A stretch of DNA of 64,000 bases from Rheinheimera sp. (GTDB lineage Bacteria; Pseudomonadota; Gammaproteobacteria; Enterobacterales; Alteromonadaceae). The notes below the pieces were generated by a model. That model did no database searches. It was not told the origin of the DNA and was given only the letters and a program-made list of their open reading frames with translations. Positions within the stretch are counted from its first letter, which is position 1; every line of letters starts with the position of its first letter. The position numbers and the translations under genes were made by a program. The stretch is from NCBI RefSeq assembly GCF_030690345.1, contig NZ_JAUYGV010000007.1, positions 310,001-374,000 on the forward strand, read 5' to 3'. Below are positions 811-27,632 of this stretch, one piece after another.

Positions 811-2115
811 ATGAGTTTTAATATCGCACTAAGCGGCCTTGCCGCAGCACAGAAAGATTTGGATACTACGGCGAATAATATTGCCAACGTTAATACCACC
901 GGCTTTAAAGAGTCGCGGGCTGAATTTGCCGATGTGTATGCCACATCCATTTTTGCCTCCGGCCGCACTAAAGTAGGTGATGGTGTAACTACCTCTGTGG
1001 TGGCGCAGCAGTTTAGCCAGGGCTCGCTGCAATTTACCAATAACTCGCTGGATATGGCGATTACCGGCGAAGGCTTTTTTGCCTTAACCCCGGATCTGCA
1101 ATCGCGGGATTTAACCTATACCCGGTCCGGTGCGTTTAAATTAAATAAGGACAACTTTATTGTTGATAATAACGGCAACTTTTTGCAGGGCTTTGCCGTT
1201 AACTCGTTGACGGGTGATAACCAATCCGTCAGTTTAAGTACTGCACAGCCGATTACCATACCCACCACTGCTGGTGCGCCAAGGGCAACGAACAATATTT
1301 TTATCAATATGAATTTGGACTCACGACTGGATCCAACAGATGCTTTGCCGTTTGATGCCACTGATTCCGGAACCTATAACAATTCTACTTCTATAACGGT
1401 GTATGACAGCTTGGGTGAGTCTCATACTGCTACCATGTATTTTCGCCGCACAACTACCGTGCCACCGGCAAACTCCGAATGGGAAACCTTTGTGGTATGG
1501 GATGATGTAACTGCAGCGCCGTTCCAGGGAGACAACTTAGTCTTCGATTCAAGCGGTAACCTGGTTTTCACGCCGCCGGCACCGACACTAACAATGCCTT
1601 TTGCTGTACTGAACGACCCGCTAAACGGTTATCTGGATAACGGTGCGCAGTATCAGGCGGATATAGTGGTTAACTTCCGTGACCCGGCGAATACCAAATT
1701 ACCGACGCAAGTTGCCGGGGATTTTGACCCTACCAGCTTAAGCCAGGATGGTACTACAGTCGGTAGCTTAACCGGGGTAGATATTGATGCCTTTGGTCGC
1801 GTGCTGGCCAGTTACAGTAATGGTGATTCGGCTTATCTGGCCCAGGTAGCTATGGTACGTTTTGCTAATGTGCAGGGTTTAAAGCAGGTAGGTAATACGT
1901 CGTGGAAGCAGACTATTACTTCCGGTAAGCCTATCGGCGGCCAGGCCAATACCAATACCTTTGGTGCTATTAATGCCTCGGCACTGGAGCAGTCTAACGT
2001 TAACCTGACCACCGAGCTGGTGGATTTAATCAGCGCGCAGCGTAACTTCCAGGCGAACTCAAGGGCACTGGAAGTTAACAGTACCTTACAACAAACCGTA
2101 CTGCAGATCCGATAA
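811..2115 (+). CDS. flgE: FlgE, flagellar hook protein
   Basis: FlgE polymerises into the hook, the universal joint between rod and filament. The N-terminus (MSFNIALSGLAAAQKDLDTT) and the following ANNIANVNTTGFKESRAEF are the rod/hook signature. The C-terminal SNVNLTTELVDLISAQRNFQANSR is the matching D0 helix. 434 aa is within the range of polar-type hook proteins. The start is supported by GAGGTG eight bases upstream. Transcription from the flgBCDE operon may end here, because a hairpin follows and the next flagellar gene, flgF, has its own sigma-54 promoter. Confidence 0.97.
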   Translation: MSFNIALSGLAAAQKDLDTTANNIANVNTTGFKESRAEFADVYATSIFASGRTKVGDGVTTSVVAQQFSQGSLQFTNNSLDMAITGEGFFALTPDLQSRDLTYTRSGAFKLNKDNFIVDNNGNFLQGFAVNSLTGDNQSVSLSTAQPITIPTTAGAPRATNNIFINMNLDSRLDPTDALPFDATDSGTYNNSTSITVYDSLGESHTATMYFRRTTTVPPANSEWETFVVWDDVTAAPFQGDNLVFDSSGNLVFTPPAPTLTMPFAVLNDPLNGYLDNGAQYQADIVVNFRDPANTKLPTQVAGDFDPTSLSQDGTTVGSLTGVDIDAFGRVLASYSNGDSAYLAQVAMVRFANVQGLKQVGNTSWKQTITSGKPIGGQANTNTFGAINASALEQSNVNLTTELVDLISAQRNFQANSRALEVNSTLQQTVLQIR

Positions 2116-2161
2116 TTAAATTTTAATATTTATTTAATTGTCATTTGTTTCTGTTTTGGTT

Positions 2162-2192
2162 AACCTCCTGTTTCTTTAAATAGGAGGTTTTA
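2162..2192 (+). promoter_or_regulatory. Hairpin that masks the Shine-Dalgarno of the next gene
   Basis: AACCTCCT (2162-2169) pairs exactly with AGGAGGTT (2182-2189) across a 12-base A/T-rich loop. The right arm contains the AGGAGG ribosome binding site (2182-2187) of the gene that starts at 2192. In a flgE read-through transcript the SD would be paired. The right arm also runs into a short T stretch, so weak termination after flgE is possible. The pairing is seen; the function is inferred. Confidence 0.6.
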
Positions 2193-3223
2193 TGCAATTT
2201 ATCAGGTACTTAATATTAGTTACTTCTTTTTTATCTGCTTTGGCAGTAAAAGCTGAAGAGATTGTCGATATTGTTAATACTCATAATTACACCTTATATA
2301 ATAAGGCTGCTACGATAACCAGAGAGTTTAATATTGCCCCGCAGCCGGGTTTTGCTAACCTCACTATTGTTAGTGCTACACCGTCGTCTGATAGTAAGTT
2401 CATTATCTGTGAAATACGGGTTTTTCATCCTGATGGCAGGCGGATTAAAGATTTATTCTGTCAAGGCGAGGGGCATGATACCCGTGTTTTATCGCCGTCT
2501 GTTGATGCTAGCACCGGACTGAGGGTGGAAGTTGCGCTGCAGTACTTTGATAGCGAGCTGCCGGCTAGCACTGCAAAAAATTACAGCTTCAGCAGCCGGT
2601 TTCGTTTTTCAGATACAGTAGATACCGGAGAGGTCGTTGAGCCGGAGGAACCTGAAGAGCCGGTGGAGCCTACTCAGCCTGCCTTTTTATCGGATTATCA
2701 GTCTAAGAATAGCTCTATGGGGCCAAGCAGCTATGCGACCCAGTCTTTTATGTTCCGCCGCGATGAAGCTTACCCGGCACTGGTGGGGTTTAAACTCTCA
2801 AGTAGTTATACAGCTACTGTGGTTGATTGCTCGTTTCAGGTTAATGGCATAAGGACAGTTGATGGTGTCAGGGTTGCAGAACGGCTGTTGTCGGACAATT
2901 GCAGTAACCGTAACCGCAAATTATTTTTGGTAAAAACACCTGATAATCCGACAGATTTTGAACAAGTTAACGTGAGTGTGAGATTTCATAACCGGCATGT
3001 AAGAAACTCAGCTTTTACGCAAAGCACGTTTGAGCTTATAAAGGGTGCTGTTGATGATGCTGATGCTGATGGCTTGCCTGCCTGGTACGAAGAATATTTC
3101 AATTTATCTGACAATGATTATAACGATGCCTTTATAGATAGTGATGGCGATGGCTATAGTAATATTGATGAGTATTTAGGTGGTTCTGATCCCACATATG
3201 CTGCCAGTACTCCTGCGATGTAA
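2192..3223 (+). CDS. Secreted two-domain protein with C-terminal calcium-type repeats, function unknown
   Basis: I do not recognise a named family. The protein (343 aa) has a signal peptide (residues 1-21, cut after AVKA). Two similar beta-rich domains follow, about residues 30-142 and 165-283, each with one cysteine pair (C73/C90 and C213/C237) and comparable strand patterns. A Pro/Glu linker (PEEPEEPVEPTQP) joins them. The C-terminus (about 288-334) carries Asp-rich loops DADADGLP and DSDGDGYSNIDEY like thrombospondin type-3/dockerin calcium sites. It sits between flgE and flgF, where flagellar operons usually have no gene, and is closed by a strong terminator. A role at the cell surface or hook is only a guess. 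It could be an unrelated insertion. Confidence 0.75.
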   Translation: MQFIRYLILVTSFLSALAVKAEEIVDIVNTHNYTLYNKAATITREFNIAPQPGFANLTIVSATPSSDSKFIICEIRVFHPDGRRIKDLFCQGEGHDTRVLSPSVDASTGLRVEVALQYFDSELPASTAKNYSFSSRFRFSDTVDTGEVVEPEEPEEPVEPTQPAFLSDYQSKNSSMGPSSYATQSFMFRRDEAYPALVGFKLSSSYTATVVDCSFQVNGIRTVDGVRVAERLLSDNCSNRNRKLFLVKTPDNPTDFEQVNVSVRFHNRHVRNSAFTQSTFELIKGAVDDADADGLPAWYEEYFNLSDNDYNDAFIDSDGDGYSNIDEYLGGSDPTYAASTPAM

Positions 3224-3242: not shown

Positions 3243-3271
3243 AAGACCTGCACTATGCAGGTCTTTTTTTT
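3243..3271 (+). terminator. Strong intrinsic terminator after the secreted-protein gene
   Basis: AAGACCTGCA (3243-3252) and TGCAGGTCTT (3256-3265) form a perfect 10-bp stem with a 3-base loop, followed by a run of T to 3271. This separates the upstream flgBCDE-type unit from flgF. Confidence 0.93.
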
Positions 3272-3286
3272 GGCCTGTTTATTGCT
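3271..3286 (+). promoter_or_regulatory. Sigma-54 promoter of flgF operon
   Basis: TGGCCTGTTTATTGCT has GG (3272-3273) and GC (3284-3285) exactly ten bases apart, matching the TGGC-N8-TTGC type -24/-12 element of RpoN. It lies about 37 bases before the flgF start and immediately after a terminator, which is where a new promoter is needed. It is likely activated by FlrA or FlrC. Confidence 0.78.
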
Positions 3287-11153: not shown

Positions 11154-11981
11154 ATGGCTTTATACGTAAACACTAATACTTCTTCATTAAATGCCCAGCG
11201 TCAGCTGTTCAATTCAGGTAATTCACTGGATACGGCATTTAAACGTTTGTCATCCGGTTTTCGTATTAACAGCGCTGCTGATGATGCCGCCGGCTTACAA
11301 ATTTCTAACCGCTTAACCAGCCAGATCAATGGTTTGGACCAGGCTGCGCGTAACGCTAACGATGGTATTTCGCTGGCCCAGGTGGCAGAGGGCGCGATGG
11401 AAGAGATCACCAACTCTTTACAGCGTATCCGTACCTTGGCTATCCAGTCGCAAAACGGTATCAACAGCTCGACAGACCGTGCTGCACTGCAAAAAGAAGT
11501 CACGGCGTTAAAAGCCGAAATGAGCCGGGTGGCAACCACTACCCAATTTGGTACGCAGAACCTGTTGGCCGGTGGCTTCTCTGCTACTTTCCTGGTGGGC
11601 GCCAATGCCGGACAGAATATCGATATTAAACTGTCACGTACCGGTGGCTACGGTACTAATGCGCTGGGTTTAAGTGCACTGAGCGTATCGTCAGTGGGTG
11701 GCGCTTCAGCTGCCTTAGCACTGATTGACACCGCTATCGGTGTCATTGATGGTACCCGTGCAGATTTGGGTGCGGTACAAAACCGCTTCCAGGCCACTAT
11801 CCGTAACTTAACCAATATTTCTGAAAACGTTTCCGGCGCCCGCAGCCGGATCCGTGACACTGATTTTGCTAAAGAAACTGCAGAGTTAACCCGTACACAG
11901 ATATTGCAGCAAACCAGTACCACGGTATTGGCGCAGGCTAACCAGCGGCCTCAGGCAGCATTAAGCTTACTGCAAGGTTAA
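11154..11981 (+). CDS. Flagellin (copy 1)
   Basis: Filament subunit, exported by the flagellar type III system. The N-terminus (MALYVNTNTSSLNAQRQLFN) and SSGFRINSAADDAAGLQISNRL are classical flagellin D0/D1. The C-terminus (ARSRIRDTDFAKETAELTRT, ending NQRPQAALSLLQG) is equally canonical. At 275 aa it has only D0/D1 and a short central loop, so surface exposure depends on few residues. Ser/Thr in the central segment are the likely O-glycosylation sites for the Maf pathway downstream. It is nearly identical in protein sequence to copies 2 and 4. GGGAG precedes the ATG. Confidence 0.97.
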   Translation: MALYVNTNTSSLNAQRQLFNSGNSLDTAFKRLSSGFRINSAADDAAGLQISNRLTSQINGLDQAARNANDGISLAQVAEGAMEEITNSLQRIRTLAIQSQNGINSSTDRAALQKEVTALKAEMSRVATTTQFGTQNLLAGGFSATFLVGANAGQNIDIKLSRTGGYGTNALGLSALSVSSVGGASAALALIDTAIGVIDGTRADLGAVQNRFQATIRNLTNISENVSGARSRIRDTDFAKETAELTRTQILQQTSTTVLAQANQRPQAALSLLQG

Positions 11982-12176: not shown

Positions 12177-13001
12177 ATGGCTTTGTATGTAAATACCAAT
12201 ACTTCATCACTAAATGCCCAGCGGCAGCTGTTTAATTCCGGCAATTCGCTGGATACGGCATTTAAACGTTTATCATCCGGTTTTCGTATTAACAGCGCTG
12301 CTGACGATGCGGCCGGCTTACAAATTTCTAACCGCTTAACCAGCCAGATCAATGGTTTGGACCAAGCTGCGCGTAATGCTAACGATGGTATTTCGCTGGC
12401 CCAGGTGGCAGAAGGCGCAATGGAAGAGATCACCAACTCTTTACAGCGCATCCGTACCCTGGCTATCCAGTCGCAAAACGGCATCAACAGCTCGACAGAC
12501 CGCGCTGCGCTGCAAAAAGAAGTGACGGCGTTAAAAGCCGAAATGAGTCGTGTTGCGTCAACCACTCAGTTTGGCGTAACCAATCTGTTAGCCGGCGGTT
12601 TCTCTGCGTCATTTTTGGTCGGCGCCAATGCCGGACAAAATATCGATATTAAACTGTCACGCACCGGTGGCTACGGTACTAATGCGTTGGGTTTAAGTGC
12701 ATTGAGTGTATCGTCAGTAGGTGGTGCCTCAGCGGCCTTAGCACTGATTGATACCGCTATCGGTGTCATTGACGGTACCCGTGCTGATCTGGGTGCGATT
12801 CAAAACCGCTTCCAGGCGACTATCCGTAACTTAACCAATATTTCTGAAAACGTCTCCGGCGCCCGCAGCCGTATCCGTGATACCGACTTTGCCAAAGAAA
12901 CTGCAGAGTTAACCCGTACACAGATATTGCAGCAAACCAGTACCACGGTATTGGCGCAGGCTAACCAGCGGCCACAAGCCGCGTTGAGTTTACTGCAGTA
13001 A
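12177..13001 (+). CDS. Flagellin (copy 2)
   Basis: 274 aa, with the same D0/D1 architecture as copy 1 and almost the same sequence. Visible differences are few: STTQFGVTNLLAGGFSASF in place of TTTQFGTQNLLAGGFSATF, AIQNRF in place of AVQNRF, and loss of the final Gly. Long blocks are also identical at the DNA level, which suggests recent duplication or gene conversion. It carries its own FliA promoter and 3' hairpin. A GGAGAG SD precedes ATG 12177. Confidence 0.97.
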   Translation: MALYVNTNTSSLNAQRQLFNSGNSLDTAFKRLSSGFRINSAADDAAGLQISNRLTSQINGLDQAARNANDGISLAQVAEGAMEEITNSLQRIRTLAIQSQNGINSSTDRAALQKEVTALKAEMSRVASTTQFGVTNLLAGGFSASFLVGANAGQNIDIKLSRTGGYGTNALGLSALSVSSVGGASAALALIDTAIGVIDGTRADLGAIQNRFQATIRNLTNISENVSGARSRIRDTDFAKETAELTRTQILQQTSTTVLAQANQRPQAALSLLQ

Positions 13002-13090: not shown

Positions 13091-13118
13091 AGAATTAAGT
13101 CAGAAACTTTACCTTAAT

Positions 13119-13139
13119 GCACAGCTGTTATTACTGTGC
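13119..13139 (+). promoter_or_regulatory. Leader stem-loop just before the flagellin 3 ribosome site
   Basis: GCACAG (13119-13124) pairs with CTGTGC (13134-13139) over a 9-base loop. It ends one base before AGGA (13141-13144), the SD of ATG 13153. It could influence translation initiation; no direct evidence. Confidence 0.45.
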
Positions 13140-13152
13140 CAGGAACCGTGCT

Positions 13153-13980
13153 ATGCCTTTAGTCGTCAATACTAATCAGTCTTCACTGGCATCCCAGCGC
13201 TTGCTTAGCAACGCAACAGGTGGCTTAAGTACCAGCTTTGAGCGTCTTACATCCGGCTTTCGCATTAACCGCGCGGCGGATGATGCAGCCGGGCTGGTAA
13301 TTTCCAACGTGTTGACCAGCCAGGTGAATGGTTTGGACCAGGCGGTGCGTAATGCTAATGATGCGGTGTCACTGGTGCAGGTTACTGAAGGTGCGATGGA
13401 CGAAATTGCCACCAGCCTGCAACGTATGCGGGTGCTGACTATTCAATCTGAAAATGGCATTAATACCGCGGCTGACATTTCAGCAATTCAGCAGGAATAT
13501 GATGAGCTGGCGGCCTCCATTCAGAATATTGCCGATAATACCGAATTTGGTGGTATTAAACTGCTGGACGGCAGCACGCCTTCGGTAATTTTTCAGATTG
13601 GTGCTAACGCCGGTCAAAAAATTGAAATTGATTTATCCGCCGGCTACGGCAGCGGTGTTACCGGGTTGAATGTGGCGGCAGTGCAGTTAGGGGTTGATGA
13701 TGCGGCTGACTCACTGTTAGCGCTGGACCAGGCTATTTTAGCTATCGATGTCGGACGCACAGACTTAGGAGCCTGGCAAAATGTACTGACTACCACTATC
13801 CGTAATTTGAGCAATATCAGCGAAAATGTCTCTGCATCACGCGGCCGAATTCGCGATACCGACTATGCCAGAGAAACTACTGAACTTACGCGGACGCAAA
13901 TAATTCAGCAAAGCAGTACCACGGTATTAGCGCAGGCAAATCAGCGACCACAAGCGGCATTAAGTGTACTGGGTAATTAA
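13153..13980 (+). CDS. Flagellin (copy 3, divergent)
   Basis: 275 aa from the chosen start. It has flagellin D0/D1 blocks (MPLVVNTNQSSLASQRLLSN; GFRINRAADDAAGLVISNVL; RGRIRDTDYARETTELTRTQ) but clearly differs from copies 1, 2 and 4 throughout, including the central loop (DGSTPSVIFQIGANAGQKIE). It is therefore a distinct subunit, perhaps placed at one end of the filament as in species with several flagellins. The track starts at ATG 13117, inside a hairpin and without an SD. ATG 13153 has AGGA eight bases upstream and gives the canonical N-terminus. No clear terminator follows. Confidence 0.95.
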   Translation: MPLVVNTNQSSLASQRLLSNATGGLSTSFERLTSGFRINRAADDAAGLVISNVLTSQVNGLDQAVRNANDAVSLVQVTEGAMDEIATSLQRMRVLTIQSENGINTAADISAIQQEYDELAASIQNIADNTEFGGIKLLDGSTPSVIFQIGANAGQKIEIDLSAGYGSGVTGLNVAAVQLGVDDAADSLLALDQAILAIDVGRTDLGAWQNVLTTTIRNLSNISENVSASRGRIRDTDYARETTELTRTQIIQQSSTTVLAQANQRPQAALSVLGN

Positions 13981-17735: not shown

Positions 17736-20558
17736 ATGCTGAAGTACATTAATTATCAGCTGGACTCAGACGACGCTGCTCAGGCGGCGTCTGAGCAAAA
17801 AGTCGCTGCCGGCATCAAGCAGCGTTTTAACAACAATCTTCAGGCGTTATCGCAGTACATTCCTTCCGTGGTACCAATAATTCAGCAACATAGTATGCAG
17901 CAGTATTCGGTATTCTGTACCCGCGCTGCAGAGCTGAATATTGTCGACTTTGCAACCGGCCGTGTGTGGTACAGCGAAACGCCCTTTGCTGAAGTATCAC
18001 GCGAAGTCGACAGCTTTTGCCGTAATGCACCCTATGTTGAACTTGATACATCTGCCTCGCCAACGCAGGCTGACCAGCCATGGCCTGTTGAGGCTTTACC
18101 GCCGCAGCCTGATGTGGTTGTTATGCTGGGGTTGGGGCTGGGTTATCAGATAAACGCTCTGCTGCAAAAAGCCGGGGTTAAGTACCTTATTGTGTACGAA
18201 CCCAATGTAGATGCGCTGATTTGCTCGGTGCAGGCTAATGATTGGCGGCAACTGTTTACCGTGGCAGAAGCTGCGGGCACACAGATTTTTTTGCAATTGG
18301 AAAATGACGGCAGCTCGGTTGCAGAAGACCTGGCAGAGCTGCGCAGCGTGGCCGGTTTTAGCCGTGTTTATGTATACCGGCATTACTGCCATCCGGTGAT
18401 GGATAAAGTAGCTGAATATTTATTTGCTCACAGCGGCCAGCCGGAGCAGTTGCTGGGCAGCACTGCACAGTTTGTCGCCTACGAAGACTTTAACGATTAC
18501 GTTGCCGAGCGCAGCGCTAACGTGCTGGGTAACCAACAACCGCATGCCGCGGCGCCGGCAGATGAGTTGTACCGGCGCAATATGGCGGCGCTGCAAAAGT
18601 TTTACCCCAAAGTACATGATGAAATTAATAAGCACCAAAGCCGGCATTGGCAAGCGGTAACCGATGACAATGGCAAAAGCAATTTATACCATCCGCAGCG
18701 TAAAGCATTTTTTTATCAGGACCTTGATGCGGAATCGGCCCGTTTGCTGGAGTATTTTACCCGGCAGCCGTATAAAGATGATGTGTTGTTAGGCCAGACC
18801 TCTGTTGATAAATTCAGCCACTACATTCATTACTCGCATATTGCGCAGACACAGCCGCTGATTAATAAACAACTGCAACAGAAAATTCAGTTGCCGCAAG
18901 AGGTCGACTCACTGATTATCTTCGGTGTGGGTTTGGGTAAACATATTCAGTTACTGACCGAACAGTATCAGATCAGCAATCTGTATATTTGTGAGCCCAA
19001 TTTAGATTTTTTTGCTGCCAGTCTTAAGGTAACGGATTGGGCCGCTATATTTGACCGTGCCGAGCAAAATGGCCTGCGGATATACCTGAACCTGGGCGGC
19101 GACGGCTCAACCTATTTTTACGATCTGATGGCGCAATTTTACCAGGTTGGTGCTTATTCCATCGCCAATACCTATATGTTTTGCTCTTACTTCAACCAAA
19201 AGATGCACAAAGCGATTGCCGACTTACGCGCCGAATTAAAGGTCGTACTGGCGCTGGGCGAATATTATGATCATTGTCGTTATGGTATTGCACATACTTA
19301 TAACAGCGTGGCTAAGCAGCATAAGTTTTTACAGTATGACAACAGCAGTTACCGCAATTTGCCGGCATTAAACCTGCCGGTGTTTGTGGTGGGTAATGGG
19401 CCGTCGTTAGACAGCAGCTTCGGCTATTTGCAGGAGCATCGCGACAAGGTGGTGTTAATCAGTTGCGGTACCGCTTTGTATTCACTGTACAAAAAAGGCA
19501 TTAAGCCGGACTTTCACGCCGAGGTGGAACAAAATCGCTCTACGTTCTGCTGGATAGGGCAGGTGAAAGATGCTGATTATTTAAAGGATATCCGGCTGAT
19601 CAGTGTGAACGGTATTCATCCGGATACAGCCGATCTGTTTAAAGAAACCTTGTTGTGTTTTAAAGACGGTGAGTCATCGACTAATTTTTTTGACTCGCGG
19701 TTAAAAAAACAAGGCGTGCAGGTAGCGTCACTTAGTTATGCTTACCCAACAGTTACTAATCTGGTATTAAATTACGCATTACGGTTGGGCTTTAAAGTAT
19801 TTTATCTGTTTGGGGTTGATCTTGGTTACGCTGATGTGCGCCAACACCACTCTCAGGCTTCGGCTTATTACCGTAACGACGGCACAGAAGTGTATGACTA
19901 CCAGCAAACTCATGGCGGCGGCATGCCGGCAAAGGGTAACTTTTTACCTTATGTGTTTACCAAGCCTGAATTTGATATGTCGCGAAAATTGCTGGAACAG
20001 GCTATCAGCAAAGCCGGACGCAAAGTAGAGATCTACAACTGCAGCAATGGCGTGAAGATTGATGGTGCTGTGCCGCTGCAGCCGGATAACATTTTATTCA
20101 GTGACTTACCCAAACACAAAGAGTTGATATTACAACAGCTGATCGATACGGCGTACTATGCCGATTTATCAGGTTATGCCAAGCCGATATTGGCCCAAAT
20201 CGACTTTACTGCTTTTCGTCGTACAATTGACGCCTGGTTGGCAATGTTTGATGCTGAGATTAGCAATGCGGAGCAGGCCAAAGCCTTTATTGCCGGGCAA
20301 TGGCGCTTGCTGCAAACTGCTGCGCGCGACCCGTCAGATCCAACCTTCTATTTGTTCTACGGCAGCACCAATTACTTCGGCGGCCTGATGACCAAGGTTG
20401 CATCTTGTATCAGTGACGATACGCCGGAGATCTTGCCTGTGTTTAACCAGGTTATGCAGGTATGGCGTGATTATGTGCAAAGCGCCGGCGAGCAGTTTGA
20501 ACAACAGCCGTTAAAGTTTGACGATGTGGATGTACAACACTTGTTTGCCAAAAGCTGA
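17736..20558 (+). CDS. Maf-type motility-associated glycosyltransferase (DUF115/MptE-like)
   Basis: Maf proteins transfer nonulosonic acids such as pseudaminic acid onto flagellin Ser/Thr in the cytoplasm; here a complete pse operon lies downstream. The Maf_flag10 core begins near residue 545 (LPVFVVGNGPSLDSSFGYL; IKPDFHAEVEQN) and runs to about 730 (FKVFYLFGVDLGYAD). At 940 aa it is long because the N-terminal half holds two similar Rossmann-like units: residues 127-200 (VVMLGLGLGYQ ... YEPNVDAL) and 393-465 (LIIFGVGLGKH ... CEPNLDFF). The C-terminal 200 aa are helical. It follows the fliT-like gene by 14 bases, so it is probably cotranscribed with fliDS. Confidence 0.9.
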   Translation: MLKYINYQLDSDDAAQAASEQKVAAGIKQRFNNNLQALSQYIPSVVPIIQQHSMQQYSVFCTRAAELNIVDFATGRVWYSETPFAEVSREVDSFCRNAPYVELDTSASPTQADQPWPVEALPPQPDVVVMLGLGLGYQINALLQKAGVKYLIVYEPNVDALICSVQANDWRQLFTVAEAAGTQIFLQLENDGSSVAEDLAELRSVAGFSRVYVYRHYCHPVMDKVAEYLFAHSGQPEQLLGSTAQFVAYEDFNDYVAERSANVLGNQQPHAAAPADELYRRNMAALQKFYPKVHDEINKHQSRHWQAVTDDNGKSNLYHPQRKAFFYQDLDAESARLLEYFTRQPYKDDVLLGQTSVDKFSHYIHYSHIAQTQPLINKQLQQKIQLPQEVDSLIIFGVGLGKHIQLLTEQYQISNLYICEPNLDFFAASLKVTDWAAIFDRAEQNGLRIYLNLGGDGSTYFYDLMAQFYQVGAYSIANTYMFCSYFNQKMHKAIADLRAELKVVLALGEYYDHCRYGIAHTYNSVAKQHKFLQYDNSSYRNLPALNLPVFVVGNGPSLDSSFGYLQEHRDKVVLISCGTALYSLYKKGIKPDFHAEVEQNRSTFCWIGQVKDADYLKDIRLISVNGIHPDTADLFKETLLCFKDGESSTNFFDSRLKKQGVQVASLSYAYPTVTNLVLNYALRLGFKVFYLFGVDLGYADVRQHHSQASAYYRNDGTEVYDYQQTHGGGMPAKGNFLPYVFTKPEFDMSRKLLEQAISKAGRKVEIYNCSNGVKIDGAVPLQPDNILFSDLPKHKELILQQLIDTAYYADLSGYAKPILAQIDFTAFRRTIDAWLAMFDAEISNAEQAKAFIAGQWRLLQTAARDPSDPTFYLFYGSTNYFGGLMTKVASCISDDTPEILPVFNQVMQVWRDYVQSAGEQFEQQPLKFDDVDVQHLFAKS

Positions 20559-25605: not shown

Positions 25606-26430
25606 ATGGATGAAGGCAAAATTCCAACGCAGAGCTATGGCATTCTTGAGCAGAAGCAGGTGCTCACTGACATTGAAGAAATAAGGGAGCAATTTTTAAC
25701 CAACGGCTATGCTATTTTGGATGCTGGCTTGTCCGGTGAAGACATTGCCACTATACAAGCGGATTTTGACACTCTGTCCAGGCGTTATATCACGCATTAT
25801 GGCAGCGACAAGTTGAAAAGTTGTGATGAATATCACACGGTAAGAGCTCCGCTATTGTTTGAGAACAGCGATACGTTTTTACGCTTAGCGTTAAACCCTG
25901 TACTGCTTGAATTCGTCAGTAGTGTTATTGCAGGGAGTTTTATCCTTAACCAGCAAAATGCAATTACGAATCCTTCAAGGCAACCTTATAATCAGGGAAA
26001 ATGGCATCGGGATTTGCCTTATCAACACTTTGTAAGTTCACGGCCTATCGCGGTAAATGCGCTGTACTGTGTCGATGATTTTACCAGTGATAATGGTTCT
26101 ACCTATGTTTTACCTTTTTCTCATCTGCGCGAAGAAATGCCCTCAACGCGATACATAAAAAATCATGCTGTGCAGGTATGTGCAAAAGCAGGCCGGTTTA
26201 TAGTGATTAACTGTATGACTTTCCACACCGGCGGCTTCAACCTTTCACCTTTAGATCGTCGCGCAGTCAATCACTTGTTCAATATTCCTTTTTTTAAGCA
26301 GCAGATAAAAATACCCGGTAATTTGTCTGAAGAGGGTTTAACTGAGCAGCAGAAAAAGATTCTCGGTTTCGGCTTCGACGAAATACAGTCTATTGATGCT
26401 TTTGTCGCACAGCGGCTAAGGCGTGTTTGA
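25606..26430 (+). CDS. Phytanoyl-CoA dioxygenase (PhyH)-like Fe(II)/2-oxoglutarate oxygenase
   Basis: 274 aa. The iron-binding facial triad is visible: GKWHRDLPYQ gives His-X-Asp, and CMTFHTGGFNLSPLDRRAVNH gives the distal His together with the Arg that binds 2-oxoglutarate. The double-stranded beta-helix core spans about residues 85-225. PhyH members hydroxylate small molecules, including sugar-derived natural products. In this island it may hydroxylate an acyl group or the sugar. It is 25 bases after the previous gene and its stop overlaps an upstream start option of the aminotransferase. Confidence 0.8.
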   Translation: MDEGKIPTQSYGILEQKQVLTDIEEIREQFLTNGYAILDAGLSGEDIATIQADFDTLSRRYITHYGSDKLKSCDEYHTVRAPLLFENSDTFLRLALNPVLLEFVSSVIAGSFILNQQNAITNPSRQPYNQGKWHRDLPYQHFVSSRPIAVNALYCVDDFTSDNGSTYVLPFSHLREEMPSTRYIKNHAVQVCAKAGRFIVINCMTFHTGGFNLSPLDRRAVNHLFNIPFFKQQIKIPGNLSEEGLTEQQKKILGFGFDEIQSIDAFVAQRLRRV

Positions 26431-26453
26431 TGGTCAAATGCAGGGATCACAGC

Positions 26454-27632
26454 ATGCAAATTCCTTTTAACAAACCTTATATGACAGGTAAAGAGATCCA
26501 GTATATTGCCAGGGCACACAAGCTTGGTAAGCTTGCCGGAGATGGTGACTTTACCGCTAAATGTCACGGCTGGATTGAGCAGCATACCGGTTGCAATAAG
26601 GCGCTGTTAACCCATTCTTGTACTGCCGCACTGGAAATGGCCGCTATTCTGTTAGATTTGCAGCCGGGTGATGAAGTAATAATGCCTTCCTATACTTTTG
26701 TTTCCACCGCCAATGCCTTTGTCTTGCGCGGTGCTGTGCCTGTTTTCGTTGATATCAGACCCGACACACTGAATATCGATGAAAAGCTGATTGAAGCTGC
26801 CGTTACGGCGCGAACCCGTGCGATAGTGCCTGTGCACTATGCCGGTGTGGCATGTGAGATGAGTGAGATTTTGCGCATTGCAAAAAAACACAATTTGTCA
26901 GTGGTAGAAGACGCTGCACAGGGCGTTATGTCGACATACAAAGGCAAGCCACTGGGAACTATAGGTGATATAGGAGCCTATAGTTTTCATGAAACAAAGA
27001 ATGTCATTTCAGGCGAAGGTGGTGCCCTGTTAGTAAACCGGCCTGATTTAGCTGTAAGAGCCGAAATTATCCGTGAGAAAGGTACCGACAGAGCACGGTT
27101 CTTCCGCGGCGTTGTAGACAAGTATACCTGGCAGGATATTGGTTCCTCATTTTTACCGGGTGAGATTATTGCAGCATTTCTGCTGGCTCAGCTGGAAGAC
27201 GCTCAGAATATAACTGCACTGAGGCTTGCGCGCTGGGATTATTATCATACTTTACTTGAGAAAGCAGAAAATGAAGGTTTGCTCACAAGACCGTCAGTGC
27301 CTGCGCATTGTGGCCATAATGCTCATATGTACTATGTGTTACTGCCGGCGCAACTCGGGCGGCAGGTAATTATGGATAAACTTAAAGAAAAATTAATCAG
27401 TACAGTGTTTCATTACATACCATTGCACAGCTCTCCCGCGGGGCAACATTTTGGTCGTGCTGCGACTACGATGGCAGTAACAGATGATGCGTCTGCACGG
27501 ATTTTAAGATTGCCATTGTGGGTCGAGCTTACCGGTGAGCAACAGGAGTATATCGTTAGCGCTCTACTGGAAAGTATCAATGAACTGATTCATCGGAAGA
27601 ATTATGAACTCTCCGAAGCTTCACAGGCATAG
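26454..27632 (+). CDS. WecE/RffA-like dTDP-4-dehydro-6-deoxy-glucose aminotransferase
   Basis: PLP enzyme of the DegT/DnrJ/EryC1 class. The sequence closely follows E. coli RffA (WecE): SCTAALEMAAILLDLQPGDE, EVIMPSYTFVSTANAFVLRG, VEDAAQGVMSTYKGKPLGTI and YSFHETKN, in which Lys is the PLP-binding residue. It would make dTDP-4-amino-4,6-dideoxyhexose (Fuc4N or, less likely, viosamine). The track starts at TTG 26427. I chose ATG 26454 because CAGGGA lies upstream and the N-terminus IPFNKPYMTG then aligns with RffA. 392 aa. Confidence 0.88.
   Translation: MQIPFNKPYMTGKEIQYIARAHKLGKLAGDGDFTAKCHGWIEQHTGCNKALLTHSCTAALEMAAILLDLQPGDEVIMPSYTFVSTANAFVLRGAVPVFVDIRPDTLNIDEKLIEAAVTARTRAIVPVHYAGVACEMSEILRIAKKHNLSVVEDAAQGVMSTYKGKPLGTIGDIGAYSFHETKNVISGEGGALLVNRPDLAVRAEIIREKGTDRARFFRGVVDKYTWQDIGSSFLPGEIIAAFLLAQLEDAQNITALRLARWDYYHTLLEKAENEGLLTRPSVPAHCGHNAHMYYVLLPAQLGRQVIMDKLKEKLISTVFHYIPLHSSPAGQHFGRAATTMAVTDDASARILRLPLWVELTGEQQEYIVSALLESINELIHRKNYELSEASQA

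Follow-up and report, generated by a model that had tools for sequence, protein, structure and literature searches.

A predicted Sec-exported jelly-roll protein encoded at the flgE-flgF junction of Rheinheimera and a second genus

Introduction

In Vibrio cholerae, the boundary between flgBCDE and flgFGHIJ contains a sigma-54- and FlrBC-dependent promoter, which lies between flgE and flgF and drives flgFGHIJ independently of the flgB promoter, and the portion of that report drawn on here describes no extra gene at the boundary (PMC7064773). Among exported proteins encoded with flagellar genes, FlhE has been proposed as a periplasmic chaperone that controls rod assembly (PMC11247099). Bacterial TSP3 proteins (PF18884) are secreted and have, towards the C-terminus, acidic loops of the DxDxDG type that close with a G(S/T)DP motif. 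Jelly-roll domains occur in subtilisin Tk-SP, in the Ena subunits of endospore appendages, and in carbohydrate-binding modules. At the locus described here, as in V. cholerae, a sigma-54-type element lies between flgE and flgF, but an additional gene precedes it, and the product of this gene resembles the TSP3 proteins in its loops, motif and predicted secretion while differing from them in having only a short tail below the Pfam cut-off and jelly-roll domains outside PF18884.

Results

The window, a 64,000-nucleotide stretch of a Rheinheimera sp. contig (NZ_JAUYGV010000007.1, positions 310,001 to 374,000), contains the following features around the gene.

811-2115, flgE
2113..2191, plus strand, leader from the flgE stop codon to the ATG of the gene, with hardly any variation among the four Rheinheimera that carry the gene
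2162..2189, plus strand, 12-bp perfect hairpin AACCTCCTGTTT-CTTT-AAATAGGAGGTT
2192-3223, plus strand, the gene, ATG to TAA, 343 aa, between flgE and flgF
2192..2257, plus strand, Sec-type signal peptide, residues 1-22, cleavage site placed by eye
2258..2617, plus strand, domain D1, residues 23-142, with C73/C90, predicted jelly roll (AlphaFold; Foldseek jelly-roll matches)
2618..2686, plus strand, Pro/Glu linker, residues 143-165, from sequence and low pLDDT
2687..3046, plus strand, domain D2, residues 166-285, with C213/C237, D1-like strand order in the low-confidence whole-chain model
3053..3196, plus strand, TSP3-like tail, residues 288-335, two acidic DxDxDG-type loops
3243-3265, plus strand, intrinsic-terminator-like hairpin, then a T run
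3271-3286, plus strand, sigma-54-type element TGGCCTGTTTATTGCT before flgF
3323, start of flgF

The secreted-type open reading frame between flgE and flgF, noted in a preliminary description, is more than a chance reading frame, since it is kept at 79-85% identity in three other Rheinheimera species (R. lutimaris, R. oceanensis and R. pacifica) with a dN/dS of 0.16-0.26, indicating purifying selection. All the parts listed in that description were found again: a candidate signal peptide, read by eye as MQFIRYLILVTSFLSALAVKA with cleavage before EE and without a lipobox, one Cys pair in each domain, a Pro/Glu linker containing EPEEPEEPVEP, a C-terminal DxDxDG region with the motif DADADGLPAWYEE...DSDGDGYSNIDEYLGGSDP, and a terminator belonging to the gene itself. 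Judging from the signal peptide, the protein is probably exported via Sec, and disulfides would form within the Cys pairs. A flagellar axial protein (rod or hook, exported by the flagellar type III system) is not indicated, as no Flg_bb_rod-type match was found in Pfam and a Sec-type signal peptide, by eye, is present instead.

No Pfam family covering D1 or D2 was found, and searches of PHROGs, PADLOC and PDB sequences with the window protein returned nothing useful, with no solved structure matched by sequence. AlphaFold models were built from alignments of four sequences that left out the homologues from the genome searches. Under these conditions D1 alone was modelled as a seven-strand jelly roll (pLDDT 83.6, pTM 0.72) with its Cys residues in strands 4 and 5, and the strand limits make C73/C90 neighbours across the two strands of the 4-5 hairpin. 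C213/C237 occupy the same position in D2, although the whole-chain model from which this is read is poor (pLDDT 54). The nearest solved structures to D1 in Foldseek were generic jelly rolls (E 1e-5 to 1e-6, TM about 0.5, 11-15% identity), and the BFVD search likewise returned generic jelly rolls; the matches of the whole-chain model to tandem jelly-roll proteins, at a TM of about 0.2, were taken as a hint only. The predicted D1 fold is thus like that of Tk-SP, Ena and carbohydrate-binding modules, but at 11-15% identity and in so common a fold no function is fixed by the likeness. As for the earlier claim of two similar domains, strand order and Cys placement agree in the models, which supports a duplication, whereas sequence similarity ranges from nearly nil to suggestive: BLASTP gave no match between D1 and D2, a profile-profile comparison gave a probability of 2.8%, and HMM scores against shuffles reached about p 0.002-0.03, which is suggestive at most. 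Judged by the agreeing strand order, nothing found sets the two folds apart.

In Pfam, the window protein matched TSP3_bac (PF18884) alone, and below the cut-off (17.8 bits against 25); its NCBIfam matches were far below cut-off and confined to the tail region. The related protein P0005 of a second genus passes the TSP3_bac cut-off at 28 bits. The acidic loop residues of TSP3 type are present in the window tail, which probably binds calcium. Across the family, most matches of the whole protein were to large, unrelated proteins that share nothing with it but the TSP3 tail, and these were set aside.

The statement that the gene splits a standard flg operon was misleading, as the gap normally has a sigma-54-type element before flgF. 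In the 26 gene-less Rheinheimera gaps that we read, which span 119-251 nt, a terminator-like hairpin is accompanied by a TGGCAY-N5-TTGC element before flgF, identified by eye. A pattern search covering 32 flgE-flgF gaps from other genera of the family located the same element before flgF in 29 of them, and no reading frame of at least 70 aa was found in those 32 gaps. In the window the element at 3271-3286 directly follows the terminator of the gene; one occurrence of such a short pattern carries little weight, and the evidence is its place, which is conserved in relatives. Since the flgF side has a promoter element of its own both in relatives and in V. cholerae, the gene occupies an existing operon junction. 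No promoter of sigma-54 or sigma-28 type was recognised upstream of the gene itself. Gene-less sister genomes retain complete flgE and flgF, and in a few genomes flgF does not come next after flgE. The gap can hold other sequence: in one genome of another genus (G108) it is filled by an unrelated 241-aa reading frame (L133 631-1353) that looks exported and is without a Pfam match. In the flgE-flgF gap of genome G366 (L087), the place normally taken by the flgE terminator is occupied by a perfect palindrome of great length, GGGGTCAGATCACATTGTTAAC...GTTAACAATGTGATCTGACCCC.

The leader between flgE and the gene is far more conserved than the coding sequence flanking it: comparisons among the four Rheinheimera copies show 0-4 changes in 76 leader positions, while dS is 0.3-1.4. 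The full element was seen in gene-bearing genomes only. Its hairpin, which has the Shine-Dalgarno sequence AGGAGG (2182-2187) within its 3' arm, stands at the site of the flgE terminator of gene-less relatives; the leader fold has z scores of -4.5 and -3.5, and two substitutions within the hairpin (L003/L004) retain pairing as G-U. The hairpin may terminate, repress translation, or do both. Rfam gave nothing near the gathering score for the leader. No such leader was seen in the second genus, where an ordinary terminator usually lies between flgE and the gene.

The gene was found in 4 of 31 Rheinheimera genomes, each time directly after flgE, with flgF downstream in three; in R. pacifica the contig ends just past the gene. 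In that contig an IS-like sequence, by our reading, begins right behind the terminator of the gene, at the contig end (L004 6090-6182). In the second genus, the gap was read in 21 genomes: 12 encode a single-domain protein there (120-139 aa), in eight it is empty, and in one, G165, a two-domain protein is encoded between flgE and flgF. This last protein, P0005, has 381 aa, is 28% identical to the window protein, and has one TSP3 repeat behind each of its two domains. Between the single-domain proteins and D1 of G165 the match has an E value of 9.5e-20. Against the window D1, the single-domain HMM scored 10-12 bits, above all 3000 shuffles, while D1 of the Rheinheimera copy L003 fell inside the decoys; the strong profile comparison between single-domain proteins and the D1 group concerns a group that includes G165. 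The C-x16-C spacing in the 4-5 hairpin, the F-x-F end and the location are common to window D1 and the single-domain proteins, strengthening the link between them. The window protein therefore shares the location and the D1-type domain of the junction family, with a modest HMM signal for its D1.

With domain profiles and a limited number of candidates scored per genome, no further carrier genus was found among 399 genomes of the family. At the order level, with candidates limited in the same way, one further member appeared in 286 genomes, and at the class level no other member was found in 270. The additional homologue, in genome G619 of another family, has 331 aa in a domain-TSP3-domain arrangement (L161 6228-7223) and lies away from flagellar genes in a mobile-looking region, adjoining DarT and DarG (DarTG), a transposase-like reading frame (our reading; no Pfam match) and a phage GPA fragment. 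Two other genomes, G296 and G486, gave weak matches that were judged spurious. In total, 17 of 18 members stand directly after flgE, with flgF seen on the other side in 16, rather than at unrelated loci. A gene at this junction is undescribed in the open-access literature covered by a short search, and the junction proteins apparently form a small family not previously described.

On a FlgF tree of 51 genomes, which represents one neighbouring gene and not the species, the single-domain form constitutes one clade (support 100/100) in which all 12 genomes carry it and which spans a mean pS of 0.49 in flgF, whereas the two-domain form requires three separate changes. Median dN/dS of the single-domain gene is 0.18, with many pairs near saturation. 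Between the two Rheinheimera subclades, synonymous divergence amounts to 0.57 for the gene, below the values for flgE (0.79) and flgF (1.42). Identity along the gene is mosaic: the window copy is 87-97% identical to L003 over 2311-2490, whereas its identity to the sister copy L002 drops to 68% in two blocks, and a variable D1 patch (2371-2490, residues about 60-100) has 68% nucleotide identity to the sister but 87-93% to a more distant genome. The mosaic identity and the lower synonymous divergence point to exchange of alleles.

Elsewhere in the window there are two tandem, nearly identical flagellin genes (11154-11981 and 12177-13001), followed by more flagellin-like reading frames (13117-13980). 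A Maf-type flagellin glycosyltransferase gene (Maf_flag10_N; 17736-20558) and a DegT-type sugar aminotransferase gene (26427-27632) lie by the flagellin and FliD genes and probably form a flagellin glycosylation cluster. The same genome has a second flg gene set (G000:C10, about 671459-674182); such a set occurs in 11 of 31 Rheinheimera genomes, including all four gene carriers. A tie between the gene and a second flagellar system was rejected as a rule, because G165 has a single set.

Discussion

Our data suggest, without proving, that the gene encodes a lineage-specific, Sec-exported accessory of the envelope or the polar flagellum, a reading to which we give slightly less than an even chance. 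The protein would be Sec-exported and disulfide-stabilised, its pair of jelly-roll domains followed by a TSP3-like tail that would bind calcium and be stabilised by it; it would be the enlarged form of a small family whose single-domain form resides stably at the flgE/flgF junction of the second genus. An extracytoplasmic location is favoured because of the export signal, the Cys pairs, the jelly rolls and the tail, and the protein might act, for example, at the point where rod, P/L rings and hook pass through the envelope, as a factor of the periplasm or the outer membrane; where it acts, and whether it has any connection with hook or rod, is inference. A role tied to the locus is favoured by the conserved place, the retention and the purifying selection. 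In both genera every one of the 17 members stands after flgE, even though the two-domain forms share only 28% identity. A single-domain form and a two-domain form with one or two TSP3 repeats occupy the same junction, and the leader stays near constant while surrounding synonymous sites diverge. Against this reading, sister genomes without the gene retain complete flgE and flgF, a terminator separates the gene from flgE in the second genus, and the sequence signal behind the link of the single-domain form to window D1 is modest. A more specific proposal, in which a Sec-exported jelly roll at the hook/rod operon junction of two genera serves the flagellum itself, in single-domain and duplicated TSP3-tailed forms, and in which the leader hairpin holds back translation in Rheinheimera by hiding the ribosome-binding site, we consider unlikely.

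A substantial possibility, if still short of probable, is that the gene is cargo: a secreted or surface protein with a TSP3 tail and adhesin-like or glycan-binding jelly rolls, whose gene occupies a permissive space separating two operons, spreads by recombination through the conserved flgE and flgF flanks, and has no flagellar role. Four points weigh towards cargo rather than an accessory role: the patchy distribution, the exchange of alleles, the homologue outside this locus, and the fact that no flagellar promoter was recognised for the gene. The patchy presence amounts to three changes on the FlgF tree, synonymous divergence between the two subclades is smaller in the gene than in either flank, its mosaic identity is that expected of exchanged surface genes, the off-locus homologue lies by DarTG and a transposase-like reading frame, an unrelated reading frame fills the same gap in one genome of another genus, and carbohydrate-binding modules are among the jelly-roll folds. 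On the other hand, every member in the two genera stands at one place, with none elsewhere in those genomes, retention within the single-domain clade is complete, and the window's junction is free of mobile-element genes. Our searches found no phage copy of the gene, and plasmid matches were weak and partial.

An improbable alternative is an FlhE-like periplasmic assembly chaperone or gate that stops rods, hooks or filaments assembling in the periplasm. FlhE, from the enteric flhBAE operon, resembles the single-domain form, which is likewise small, exported, encoded within a flagellar gene cluster and present in some lineages only; the junction proteins differ from it in their operon, and no match to a flagellar Pfam family, FlhE included, was found for P0001, P0005 and 11 single-domain proteins, nor was a solved structure matched by sequence. 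To our knowledge, FlhE has neither a duplication nor a TSP3 tail, and a general assembly factor would hardly be expected to have such a tail or so patchy a distribution. Least probable is that the protein is exposed on the surface at the base of the flagellum and works there as a decoy or shield under selection from flagellum-using phages or grazers. This would account for the patchiness and the allele exchange and suits the variable D1 patch and mosaic alleles, but it is purely circumstantial, with no known defence protein matched and no association with phage.

If the protein is an accessory, two related genera would have added to the polar flagellum an exported part that is unnamed in profile libraries, and the single-domain version, about 115 aa after cleavage, would be easy to delete and to solve. 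If it is cargo, the junction of two conserved flagellar operons would be a natural landing site for surface genes. Under either reading, the nearly invariant leader with its trapped ribosome-binding site offers a clean, testable regulatory element.
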